64,000 nt of DNA from Desulfobacter vibrioformis DSM 8776 (GCF_000745975.1 NZ_JQKJ01000004.1:124001-188000), one strand, 5' to 3'; shown: positions 40,748 through 44,233, counted from the stretch's first letter. The notes: generated from the letters alone by a model not told the origin. Made by a program: numbers and translations.

Positions 40748-40880
40748 TCAATGTCATAAACTTAAGCATTGAGATTTCATTTTACCACGAAGAACACGAA
40801 GTTCACGAAGATATTAGAGTACTAAACTTCGTGTTCTTCGTGTTTTTAATCTGAAAGTTTCTTAACTTTATGACATTGAG
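40748..40880 (+). repeat. 9-mer palindromic repeat element, copy C, with terminal inverted repeats
   Basis: The most complete copy. The ends are TCAATGTCATAAACTTAAG and the inverse CTTAACTTTATGACATTGA. Inside, CACGAAGAA and CACGAAGTT units, CACGAAGATATTAGAGTAC and an inverse arm form a hairpin. It lies 21 bases after the ppdK stop. Confidence 0.85.
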
Positions 40881-40883
40881 GGT

Positions 40884-40961
40884 TTAGTTCAGGGTATTGA
40901 GCATGGATTCCCAGTCCTTCAACTTGACAATGGCCTTGATGGCATACTTCTGGCACAATTT
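40884..40961 (-). pseudogene. Truncated C-terminal gene remnant
   Basis: A short minus-strand frame codes for CQKYAIKAIVKLKDWESM and NTLN before a TAA at 40884-40886. It is preceded in frame by TGA, so only about 24 codons remain. The composition looks coding and the GC is like the core genes. The parent protein is not recognised. It lies between repeat copy C and the 3' end of the dual-NTPase gene, so it may mark the left junction of an insertion. Confidence 0.35.
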
Positions 40962-40975
40962 TCAGAGTACGGTGT

Positions 40976-43684
40976 TTAGGATAGAAGTCCTTTTCCTATA
41001 GCTTTCCGTTTGATGCTCAAAACCTTTGGACGAGCCCCCCGCTTAAATTTAAAGCCCAGTCCGATACGATAAATTTCAGGGATATAAAAACGAAATTCCT
41101 CCGTAGAATCACTAGTATCCTCATACACAACACCCAGTTTTTTTAATTCAATCAATGATGCTGTGCTATCATCGGGCAGCAAAGATTTTGAAAAAGGAAT
41201 AACAAGATCACCCTCTACCCCTGCTTCCAAAGCAGTGGCCCAGCGCTCAAAGACTTTGGATTCCTGTTTAAGTTCTTTAACGCGATCTATACTGCATCCG
41301 TTCATTGCCGAACGTATGGCCGCAGGAGGAAGTAATCGAGTTTTCCATTGTGCGGAGGATGGTGTTTCCGAGGCTTTTGCAGCTTCTTCGAGGAATCGGA
41401 CGACATCTCTTGCTTGAAGATATCCTTTAAAATCTGATAAGGCCCCGTATACCCAGTTGATTGTGTATGCTTCTTTTGAATTATCTTTACCCAGTTTAAG
41501 TCCCCATAGTTTTTTTAATTCTTTTGATAGTTGACTTTTATTCATAGAAGACGGGTCTAAATCAGACTCTTTTTCAAACGCTCCGGAACTTGTAGCAAGC
41601 CATAACACTAAGCGCAAGAAAGCGGTTTCATTCCATAAAAGCCGAAAGGCTTCATATTTTTTTTCAAATTGTCCTGTATTTTCTCTTTTTGCACTGCCAA
41701 GGTAATCCTGTCGAAGAAAAATAATCAATCCAATGTTTCGATCACGAATTTCACTAAGCCGTGCCGGGATATTCAACAAAGCTAACACTGCATTCTGCTG
41801 ATCTGTATTGGAATGGATATCAGGAAACAGGTTTTCCAACCCATCAAAGAGAAGAATTATTGGCGTTTCTTTCAGAGCATCATTAAGTTGCCGAAAAGTT
41901 GTTATACTACGATCGTTTCCGGCAACGCCCTTAATGATCTGCTCTTCCCAAAAAAATTTCCATTCAGACTCCGAATGTGTTTGATCCCTAAAAATCTCCA
42001 AACCGGTCTTAAACCCATCATAATCAAACTGTTCAAACCGAGGCTGGTTATTTTTCAGCTGTTTTATAACCGGGGAATCTCCTCCAATTTCATTTGAACG
42101 GAGAATCGGAAAAAAATCCGCATCTATCTTTGTTTTACCAGGCTCAATACGATCACAGAATTTTTTATAACTCATAAATCCTGTCATGCGCATAAAGTGA
42201 AATGTTTTGCCCGATCCTTTTGTCCCCAAAGAGACAACAAGAGGTAAGGTATTGAAGTATTGCCTTGGAAATTCTTTAAAAAAATTTGTTTTTAAGAAAT
42301 CTTCGGATTCTGTATTTTCAGCAAAAACATATTTGGAACAGAACGTTTTTAATTTCATCACAGGCGAAGGAAAATCTTTATTATCAGACAAGGTATCGTC
42401 TTCCAAATCGTCCGCTGCTTCCAATCCTTGGAAATAATCCTTAAAAATGTCAATTAAAGTACCTGAATTATCCCACACATCCTCCCAGGATCTAATATTT
42501 AGCAACTCAGTTTTGAATGGCGTCGACTGGATTGAAATCGGCTCTGTAAGTAATTCCTCAGAAGCGTCCGAGCTTAATTCACTTTCACTTCCAAATATAG
42601 CACTTTCAAAACGGGCTCTGGCATTTATCAACCGGTTCTCATCTTGATCCGGCGGCACCATGGAAATGATAATCTCCGGCAGCATCTTTCTTTGAGGCAT
42701 GGGACCGGTTTTATTTACTTTAGCCATCTCTTTTAAAACCAACTCCGTTCCATAGAGCGACTGCTCAGACAGAGTTGTCACCAGGAATCGGTCAACATAC
42801 GGATCCAATAAAAATGGGGCGCTTAACTCACTGATTCCGGCTCTTAAATCAATGAATACATAATCGGCATCGACCTGTGTGGCAAGCTTGTCAATACTTT
42901 GCCTTAACTTCCATGGATGATCACCCTGGGAAAGATGTTCAGGCTTGACATGAATCTGAAATAGATCGAGAGGATCGCTGAAAGCGGGTAAAACAGTGAT
43001 TTTCAGGTTATCGGTACCATGTTCGAACCGCTGAATTTCTTGGGCAAAATATTGGATTACCTCATCTGTGGTATATCCGGTTTCAGGATCTGAGTATTGT
43101 ATTGCATCTAAGAACTGGGTAAATCCTACCTCGGCAGCACCCCCGGTTCTATTCTTCTCCCAGAACGTAATACCAGGTGCTTCCAAATCCCCATCAATGA
43201 CCAATACTTTTTTTTTTGTTCCTGTTTCATTAATAACTTCGTTGAGGGATTTGATCATTGCGGCCAGATGAAGTGTCCTGCCGACGCCACCTTTGAAGGA
43301 ATGAAACGCTAGAATTTTATGTTCAGGCTCAGGGACTTTGGATAATGCGTCATCTGAAAGAAATACTTTTGAGAAATAGAGATGATCAAATCGGGGTCTT
43401 TCCTGGAATTGAATATGATCAGCCATACCGATTTCGATTGAAATATTCATTGTTGCGTGGCCGATATCCAGGTAAATTATGTTTTTTTCAAAATTATATG
43501 TATCCTGATTTGGAAACCATTCTTGAAAAGCCTTTTGTATGAGTTCTATATTTTCCTTTTGCTGTTCAACTATAATTTCATCCGGATAAAAATGCAGTTT
43601 TTTAATGCTTTCAGGCAACCTCCTGAAGTTGTCGGTTTCTTTTCGAATTCTGCTTTTTACATCAAGCCAACTAAGAAGTTTCAT
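40976..43684 (-). CDS. Dual-NTPase with KGGVGR P-loop (ParA-like plus STAND/AAA-like)
   Basis: A 902-residue protein with two nucleotide-binding modules. The first (residues ~120-320) is ParA/MinD-like with FHSFKGGVGRTLHLAAM near 130, VLVIDGDLEAPG, and YVFIDLRAGIS; the usual second P-loop Lys is Arg. The second (~455-700) has SLGTKGSGKTFHFMR near 486, a Walker B strand IILLFDGLENLFPD near 611, and IIFLRQDYLG near 655, as in STAND- or Sll1717-like ATPases. The last ~200 residues look like a winged-helix end. Residues 1-115 are unassigned. ATG overlaps the HEPN-like stop (TAATG) with GGAGG upstream, so translation is coupled. Base composition is visibly AT-richer than neighbouring genes. I infer a conflict or defence role; it is unproven. 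Confidence 0.75.
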   Translation of the reverse strand: MKLLSWLDVKSRIRKETDNFRRLPESIKKLHFYPDEIIVEQQKENIELIQKAFQEWFPNQDTYNFEKNIIYLDIGHATMNISIEIGMADHIQFQERPRFDHLYFSKVFLSDDALSKVPEPEHKILAFHSFKGGVGRTLHLAAMIKSLNEVINETGTKKKVLVIDGDLEAPGITFWEKNRTGGAAEVGFTQFLDAIQYSDPETGYTTDEVIQYFAQEIQRFEHGTDNLKITVLPAFSDPLDLFQIHVKPEHLSQGDHPWKLRQSIDKLATQVDADYVFIDLRAGISELSAPFLLDPYVDRFLVTTLSEQSLYGTELVLKEMAKVNKTGPMPQRKMLPEIIISMVPPDQDENRLINARARFESAIFGSESELSSDASEELLTEPISIQSTPFKTELLNIRSWEDVWDNSGTLIDIFKDYFQGLEAADDLEDDTLSDNKDFPSPVMKLKTFCSKYVFAENTESEDFLKTNFFKEFPRQYFNTLPLVVSLGTKGSGKTFHFMRMTGFMSYKKFCDRIEPGKTKIDADFFPILRSNEIGGDSPVIKQLKNNQPRFEQFDYDGFKTGLEIFRDQTHSESEWKFFWEEQIIKGVAGNDRSITTFRQLNDALKETPIILLFDGLENLFPDIHSNTDQQNAVLALLNIPARLSEIRDRNIGLIIFLRQDYLGSAKRENTGQFEKKYEAFRLLWNETAFLRLVLWLATSSGAFEKESDLDPSSMNKSQLSKELKKLWGLKLGKDNSKEAYTINWVYGALSDFKGYLQARDVVRFLEEAAKASETPSSAQWKTRLLPPAAIRSAMNGCSIDRVKELKQESKVFERWATALEAGVEGDLVIPFSKSLLPDDSTASLIELKKLGVVYEDTSDSTEEFRFYIPEIYRIGLGFKFKRGARPKVLSIKRKAIGKGLLS

Positions 43685-44106
43685 TATACTAACTCCTCCT
43701 GCAACCAGGAATCAATCTTTTGTAATTTTCCTTCAAGTTTACTTTTTTCTTCTGAATTTATAAAAGTACCTCCATATCTCAAGGCCTGGTGCAAATCTGT
43801 GAGCGGTACAGTTTCAGGTGTTTTAAAACGGGTCAGAAACTGGAAATTTTCAGGAAGACGATGGGGAGAATGAAGTTTAGATAGAAGGCCTCTCAGATCA
43901 TGAGTCAAACTGCCGGGCCTTTGATCTTCAGGAATTTTAAATGTGTCTTTTATGTTTTTGCGTTTAAGCAAAAGGGCTTTAATTCCACACTCAACAGCAT
44001 ATATAAACAATAACATTTTTGCATTAGTGCCGGGACTATTTTTCCCGCACTCCTGCATCAGATGCCGATAGGATTTATCCAGATTCTTCTGACTAACATG
44101 AATCAT
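43684..44106 (-). CDS. HEPN-like small protein coupled to the dual-NTPase
   Basis: A 140-residue, mostly helical protein. The segment AKMLLFIYAVECGIKALLLKRK, followed after a loop by LTHDLRGLLSKL, has the look of HEPN-fold proteins (two long helices with a conserved Glu and a His-Asp turn). The HEPN ribonuclease signature R-x4-6-H is not evident, so it may be a non-catalytic sensor or adaptor. The frame can begin at a TTG at 44121, but ATG at 44106 with GGGAAAAG upstream is better. It is the first gene of a two-gene unit with the KGGVGR NTPase. The AT-rich 44107-44233 upstream should hold its promoter. Confidence 0.6.
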   Translation of the reverse strand: MIHVSQKNLDKSYRHLMQECGKNSPGTNAKMLLFIYAVECGIKALLLKRKNIKDTFKIPEDQRPGSLTHDLRGLLSKLHSPHRLPENFQFLTRFKTPETVPLTDLHQALRYGGTFINSEEKSKLEGKLQKIDSWLQEELV

Positions 44107-44233
44107 ATCTTTTCCCGGCAACAGTGTCTTTATAATAAAAATGCATATAGCTTTATAAATTCAACCAGTTGAAATTAATATGAGCGGCATTAAACTACAG
44201 GCAAGTTACTGCCATTGCCTGGTTTGGCGGTGC

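Follow-up and report, generated by a model that had tools for sequence, protein, structure and literature searches.

A mobile gene pair joining a HEPN-like protein to a twin ATPase: a candidate anti-phage system with phage-borne copies of one ATPase domain

We analyzed a 64 kb stretch of Desulfobacter vibrioformis DSM 8776 (NZ_JQKJ01000004.1:124001-188000, GCF_000745975.1; hereafter 'the window') and, within it, a two-gene locus at 40976-44106. Positions are window coordinates and residue numbers are those of the window proteins. Both open reading frames (ORFs) stand where the sequence-only reading of this DNA had placed them, and lie on the minus strand. The small gene (43684-44106) encodes a divergent HEPN-like protein of 140 amino acids (aa) that resembles PDC-M28A of the PADLOC database, and the large gene (40976-43684) encodes a 902-aa chain in which a KGGVGR-type, ParA-like ATPase (domain 1) is fused to a second P-loop ATPase (domain 2), corresponding to PDC-M28B and PDC-M28C in one protein. 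Our best explanation, to which we assign a probability of about 75%, is that the pair is a horizontally moved anti-phage defense system with a sensor or switch ATPase and a HEPN-like executor, and that some phages carry a copy of domain 2 as a decoy. A defense role as such is highly probable. The earlier proposal of a conflict system is strongly supported by the placement of relatives in P2 and P4 hotspots, their nesting in Wadjet loci, restriction genes in the same operons, and phage copies of one domain.

Mobility and defense neighborhoods

The pair is a horizontally moved cassette. Of 19 genomes of the genus, three have it in full length and two keep a remnant, namely a 30-aa tail (genome G017) and the N-terminal 120 aa cut off beside a TnpB-like ORF (G002). 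Full-length copies in the genus and family occupy different neighborhoods, except in the near pair of genomes G005 and G016. This is not the pattern of a fixed core locus shared by all relatives, the outcome that the sequence-only reading had set against its own proposal. The recR-ykgJ block, which lies on one side of the pair in the window, is kept in 16 other genomes of the genus without it. A search for a clean empty site in the genus found none that would define the exact insertion junction, because ppdK, which lies on the other side, is not a neighbor of recR-ykgJ in the genomes examined. The pair occurs in 3 of 395 genomes of the phylum, in 32 of 145 Nostocaceae genomes (several copies broken) and, at an identity of at least 99%, in 11 of 5,426 E. 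coli genomes; a search for full-length copies on plasmids found none. Its composition differs from that of its flanks, with 39.6% G+C in the pair vs. 50.8% in ppdK and 52.2% in ykgJ-recR, and only 0.3% of equal-sized windows across the 64 kb are as low. This bears out the earlier remark that the module is AT-richer than its surroundings, down to the sequence line at 41521 with its 20 G+C.

The contig with the G002 remnant also carries an operon of six large ORFs (370, 1088, 873, 331, 1906, and 1431 aa; L025:98-18021, contig C23) that have no PADLOC match at E 1e-5 and are followed by the truncated ATPase and the TnpB-like ORF; the operon may have a defense function.

Several relatives sit at recognized defense sites. 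In the three E. coli genomes examined, the pair is part of a P4-like satellite, flanked there by psu and by the integrase at tRNA-Leu, and in one P2-like prophage (a viral contig) it lies between the portal gene and the replication gene gpA; P4 int-psu is an anti-phage hotspot, and portal-gpA is the P2 hotspot (PMC9122126). One P4-borne E. coli copy is that of strain Ec1117 (NZ_CP126602.1, 4306465-4309567). E. coli 2018-01-1CC has a broken copy in the P4 hotspot, with the ATPase gene split into two ORFs (L306:8665-11336). In G005 and G016 the Wadjet genes JetC and JetD flank the pair, and the G017 remnant is found at this same place of the Wadjet locus. In Comamonas, Lampropedia, and Thiopseudomonas the pair is clustered with genes for DrmMI/IIG-like methyltransferases and HNH proteins, and with DpdE/DrmD-like SNF2 helicases if the contig extends far enough; in Desulfamplus the start of the pair overlaps a type IIG enzyme gene. 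When neighbors were compared with same-contig controls in PADLOC, the families among the matches listed matched three to four members near the pair vs. mostly single matches in the controls, which is suggestive of defense enrichment. Proximity to known defense genes, which the sequence-only reading had proposed to score, was thus found at individual sites (P4 and P2 hotspots, Wadjet, and operons with SNF2 helicases and methyltransferases), and the tally points the same way as a suggestion.

Inspection by eye also placed a HipB/HipA-like gene pair between JetC and JetD of a Wadjet locus (L022:12208-13330 and L029:9967-11473). The JetC-JetD site has the look of a hotspot for insertions.

Phage copies of domain 2

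The sole phage record that matched is Microcystis phage Mic1, in gene Mic1_05 (ORF5; L246:4010-4627), whose 206-aa product is annotated as ParA. This protein has no ParA domain and is a free-standing copy of domain 2 (about aa 470-690 of the window protein), with 61% identity to a Microcystis viridis FACHB-1342 protein and 30% to the window protein. Further copies were found on viral contigs of Mic1-type phages, surrounded by portal, endolysin, exonuclease, and primase genes, and one allele of domain 2 recurs in five contigs that represent a second phage context. In a tree, the phage copies form one clade (support 100/97) that stands beside Microcystis (93/86). A search for phage copies of the HEPN gene found none.

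The P-loop of domain 2 is altered in these copies. The Microcystis host protein and the truncated contig L252 read GAKGAGKT, and the phage sequences depart from it as GAKDAGKT (L259), GVNVAGKT (L258), GADVAEYT (L250), GEGVAENT or GEGVAENI (L247 and L249), and GEDVAKKT (Mic1). The otherwise invariant R658 is His in the Mic1 subclade, and nearly all other invariant residues of the domain are kept. Within the Mic1-type subclade, the ratio of nonsynonymous to synonymous substitution rates (dN/dS) is 0.30-0.44, with Fisher p values down to 1e-5 (Mic1 vs. L249). The phage copies are derived from the Microcystis version of domain 2 and are under purifying selection. Because ATP binding is lost while selection is retained, the copies of the Mic1 group carry the signature expected of a decoy or dominant-negative protein. 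That phages counter the system with an ATP-dead mimic of domain 2, acting as a dominant-negative subunit or as a decoy for the trigger, is the likeliest reading, though a tentative one to which we give slightly under an even chance.

A ParABS partition system of Mic1 has been published with Mic1_05 as its ParA (PMC7156551), and the assignment is repeated in PMC11237433. Because Mic1_05 has no ParA domain, this label, and with it the ParABS claim, is unsupported by domain content.

Architecture of the two proteins

The two genes share a TAATG stop-start at 43682-43686 (minus strand), as first noticed in the sequence. The small ORF is coding over 43687-44106, from an ATG at 44106 (with an alternative in-phase TTG at 44121), and the coding part of the large ORF is 40979-43684. 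The overlap implies translational coupling of the pair, and a 4-base overlap is what relatives from the various phyla show most often. The large protein has relatives in cyanobacteria, beta- and gammaproteobacteria, Lachnospiraceae, Acidobacteria, Nitrospirae, Chloroflexi, and one archaeon, and in most of them by far the partner gene overlaps or adjoins the ATPase gene. A script with strict limits placed the HEPN gene directly upstream of the ATPase gene at 63 of the 77 loci, and a number of the others are truncated by a contig end or by ORF calling.

The motifs that the sequence-only reading had listed for the large protein were all located: KGGVGRT (aa 131-137), GTKGSGKT (aa 487-494), DGLE (aa 614-617), and LRQDY (aa 657-661). 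Its claim of a dual NTPase also holds, since both profiles and an AlphaFold2 model find two NTPase domains in one chain. The model, built from a 47-sequence alignment, shows two separate α/β NTPase units (mean predicted local distance difference test score, pLDDT, 83; predicted template-modeling score, pTM, 0.55). Domain 1 (about aa 119-330; 42695-43330, minus strand) is a ParA/MinD-type ATPase as judged by conservation and by Foldseek, in which its matches in the PDB are ParA/MinD proteins (best E 2.8e-6, to ParA). It contains KGGVGRT (43274-43294), DxDLEAPG, and DLRAG. NF047398, a model of KGGVGR-motif variant AAA ATPases, matches aa 123-320 (154 bits, cutoff 90; E 4.9e-45); PF13614 matches below its cutoff. 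In PADLOC, PDC-M28B (PDLC04559) matches the large protein at E 1.5e-15, and PDC-M28C (PDLC04561) matches the same chain at E 1.9e-10, with its best stretch at aa 715-823. Residues K131, G132, G133, R136, and T137 of the first P-loop are invariant in 47/47 relatives; R136 takes the place of the second lysine of the ParA/MinD P-loop (KGGxGK), which is absent. Because of this Lys-to-Arg change, domain 1 looks like a nucleotide-binding switch in which hydrolysis may be slow or absent.

Domain 2 (about aa 465-700; 41585-42292, minus strand) contains GTKGSGKT (42203-42226), DGLE (41834-41845), and R658/D660. K489, G490, G492, K493, D614, R658, and D660 are likewise invariant in 47/47. With GxKGxGKT, DG[L/I]E, R658, D660, and QxRDxxR, this site is as strictly conserved as the first, and the domain looks like a working ATPase. 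NF047389, the model of the Sll1717-family P-loop ATPases, matches aa 482-811 at 65 bits, below its curated cutoff of 75 (E 6e-18). The earlier suggestion of a STAND-like NTPase did not survive: Pfam gave no STAND, NACHT, or NB-ARC match at E up to 10, and we rejected this identity in favor of the Sll1717 P-loop family as the nearest to the second NTPase. For the C-terminal region (aa 785-895; 41000-41332, minus strand), the AlphaFold2 secondary structure has a helix/strand segment that is compatible with a winged helix. Profile searches recognized no nuclease or other effector domain in the large protein.

The small protein is HEPN-like without the canonical active site, as had been proposed from its sequence. 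A profile of 56 relatives aligned by hhalign with PF05168 members from related genomes (80%, E 1.3e-5) and with a second HEPN set linked to PDC-M28A/PF05168 (96%, E 2e-9), and reversed and column-shuffled controls gave probabilities of at most 0.5% (at most 0.3% for the comparison with PF05168 members). With these HEPN profile matches and the two NTPase domains, the other outcome that the sequence-only reading had set against its proposal, a missing HEPN fold and a single NTPase domain, did not arise. The PDC-M28A model matches the window protein weakly (E 0.021) and 10 of the 56 relatives, at best with 7e-4. No Pfam HEPN model was found for any of the 56 members at E up to 1 (best 25 of 34 families), and Pfam and PDB sequence searches with the protein or the 56-member profile gave nothing meaningful. 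Its structural model is mostly helical with one β hairpin (pLDDT 84.5). The relatives have no conserved column pair for R-x4-6-H, and Y36, E39, G41, K43, H69, R110, Y111, and L128 are invariant among them; the fixed polar residues could form another active site.

Two flanking elements had also been noted. A palindromic element of about 130 bp is indeed present beside the pair (40749-40878), but it is not specific to it: it is probably a repeat like a miniature inverted-repeat transposable element, dispersed over the genome in about 40 copies, and we rejected it as a sign that the pair is mobile. The remnant of a truncated gene is a C-terminal tail of 24 codons at 40887-40958 (minus strand; LCQKYAIKAIVKLKDWESMLNTLN), for which we found no match among the other loci compared.

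Possible mechanism, alternatives, and related systems

The mechanism we propose starts from what is shown, namely that the two genes move as a unit and that their translation is coupled. Domain 1, with arginine in place of its P-loop lysine, would bind nucleotide and dimerize, and domain 2 would assemble or read out an infection signal through ATP. On meeting such a signal, the ATPase would assemble in a way that depends on nucleotide in domain 1 and on hydrolysis in domain 2. Its co-translated HEPN-like partner would then be released or activated and arrest the cell through an action on RNA or through RNA binding, resulting in abortive infection. Phages could evade this by supplying an excess of dead domain 2, which would poison the assembly or soak up its trigger. 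For the division of labor in which the ATPase is the sensor and the HEPN protein the effector, we consider the odds to be level.

Other explanations fit parts of these data. The pair could be a toxin-antitoxin or stress-arrest module, with a HEPN toxin, an ATPase antitoxin, and phage defense at most as a by-product. The overlapping small and large genes fit such modules, as do low G+C and mobility, and a passage in PMC3710099 proposes a similar HEPN and ParA/Soj dyad as a toxin-antitoxin system. However, a 900-aa antitoxin with two ATPase sites would be unusual, the HEPN protein lacks both Rx4-6H and a Pfam HEPN family match among the families listed, and the P2/P4 hotspots together with phage capture of domain 2 alone point to infection as the trigger; we consider this module unlikely. 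Housekeeping or plasmid partition by a ParA-type segregation protein and a helper is far less probable still. The ParA-like domain and the RefSeq name of the E. coli protein ('ParA family protein') would suit it, but the pair has no ParB-like partner, and we rejected plasmid partition because full-length plasmid copies are absent and because it is contradicted by the patchy chromosomal presence, the remnants, and the broken copies.

Two further alternatives touch parts of the proposed mechanism. The ATPase complex could itself be the effector, for example on phage DNA, with the HEPN-like protein as an adaptor or as a sensor that binds RNA or nucleotides. This would explain the missing catalytic motif (according to a passage in PMC3710099, HEPN domains that lack the motif may bind RNA without catalysis), the strict conservation of both ATPase sites, and the recurrent operons with DNA-acting enzymes. 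The lack of a recognized effector domain in the large protein stands against it, as does the invariance of E39, K43, H69, R110, and Y111 in 56/56 HEPN relatives, which goes beyond the needs of a scaffold, and we regard it as possible but the less probable arrangement. Similarly, the phage copies might be unrelated to counter-defense, as captured host DNA that has another use or is decaying. The stepwise erosion of the P-loop and the published partition role of Mic1 ORF5 favor this view, which we nevertheless find somewhat doubtful, given the purifying selection in the Mic1-type clade, open frames in all copies, retention of the invariant residues outside the P-loop region save R658, the absent ParA domain, and the presence of nearly the same domain in two phage contexts.

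Several points weigh against the reading that we prefer, of a defense system with an ATPase switch, a HEPN-like executor, and a phage decoy. The window copy itself adjoins no defense gene, and the neighbor comparison is modest, with some defense matches in the control regions as well (best 25 families). Matches of the small protein to solved structures are all weak (best E 0.29), those to the HEPN chains 1wol, Csm6, and HepT included, and an RNase effector is not certain because Rx4-6H is missing from the HEPN-like protein. The system is not known from the Mic1 host, and we found no phage-challenge results for the pair in the literature.

Through this analysis, an untested database entry becomes a concrete anti-phage candidate that can be cloned and whose E. 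coli version lies at an established defense locus. The analysis also supplies a likely counter-defense protein from a cultured cyanophage. If our reading is correct, the pair is a two-ATPase, HEPN-coupled immune switch that assembles through domain 2, and represents a type of switch built from a ParA domain without the lysine and a second ATPase, which together drive a HEPN protein that lacks the motif; the published Mic1 ParABS system would then rest on a misidentified ParA, and its annotation should be corrected.

Variants of the family and another HEPN gene pair were also observed. In four Nostocaceae genomes (G554, G638, G650, and G661) the ATPase is represented by its first half alone (aa 2-419), encoded by ORFs of 472-485 aa as stand-alone KGGVGR proteins with another partner or none. 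Two genomes have in common a multi-gene operon with genes of similar size (about 505, 240, 420, and 135 aa), which is directly upstream of a diverged HEPN and KGGVGR ATPase (L024:7882-15098 and L027:35-5564). Finally, recurrent overlapping genes encode a 138-aa HEPN protein with an ECALKACI motif and a protein of 135-137 aa, in a toxin-antitoxin-like arrangement (L169:3210-4018, L170:6463-7271, L172:4201-5003, and L175:6310-7112).

Among known systems, PDC-M28 is the closest, with a HEPN-like A, a KGGVGR ATPase B, and a P-loop ATPase C in the same order and with overlapping or adjoining starts. Classical PDC-M28 elsewhere in the phylum consists of three overlapping or adjoining genes (HEPN of about 140 aa, KGGVGR ATPase of about 440 aa, and P-loop ATPase of 470-490 aa), so that B and C are separate genes in L240-L243 but a single chain in the window and its full-length relatives. 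By its domain content, the pair in the window is this candidate in a fused form with two genes. PDC systems are putative candidates found by 'guilt-by-embedding', most of them unvalidated (PMC12988326), and we found no paper on PDC-M28, KGGVGR, or Sll1717. At the level of domains, domain 1 is a clear member of NF047398, an NCBIfam model that covers the domain only and assigns no function, and domain 2 with its following region aligns to the Sll1717 family but below the curated score. The dyad of a MAE_18760-family HEPN and a ParA/Soj ATPase, which a 2013 paper (PMC3710099) reads as a toxin-antitoxin module, is likewise a two-gene operon with a predicted conflict role. Its HEPN family is listed as active, unlike the window protein, which lacks Rx4-6H and a Pfam HEPN match among the families listed, and the part of that paper describing the dyad mentions no second P-loop domain. 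The MNT-HEPN (MntA-HepT) toxin-antitoxin system also couples a small HEPN protein to a nucleotide-handling partner, but in the window the partner is a large twin ATPase rather than a nucleotidyltransferase, and the HEPN protein has no catalytic motif. PARIS (AriA ATPase and AriB) shares the two-gene design of an ATPase with a partner, the P4 int-psu hotspot, and the occurrence of fusions (PMC9122126), but is built from AAA+ and DUF4435/TOPRIM-like families instead of ParA-like, P-loop, and HEPN domains. Thus, the candidate listing as PDC-M28 was already known; new here are the fused form, the evidence from the P2/P4 hotspots and, most importantly, the dead domain encoded by phages.

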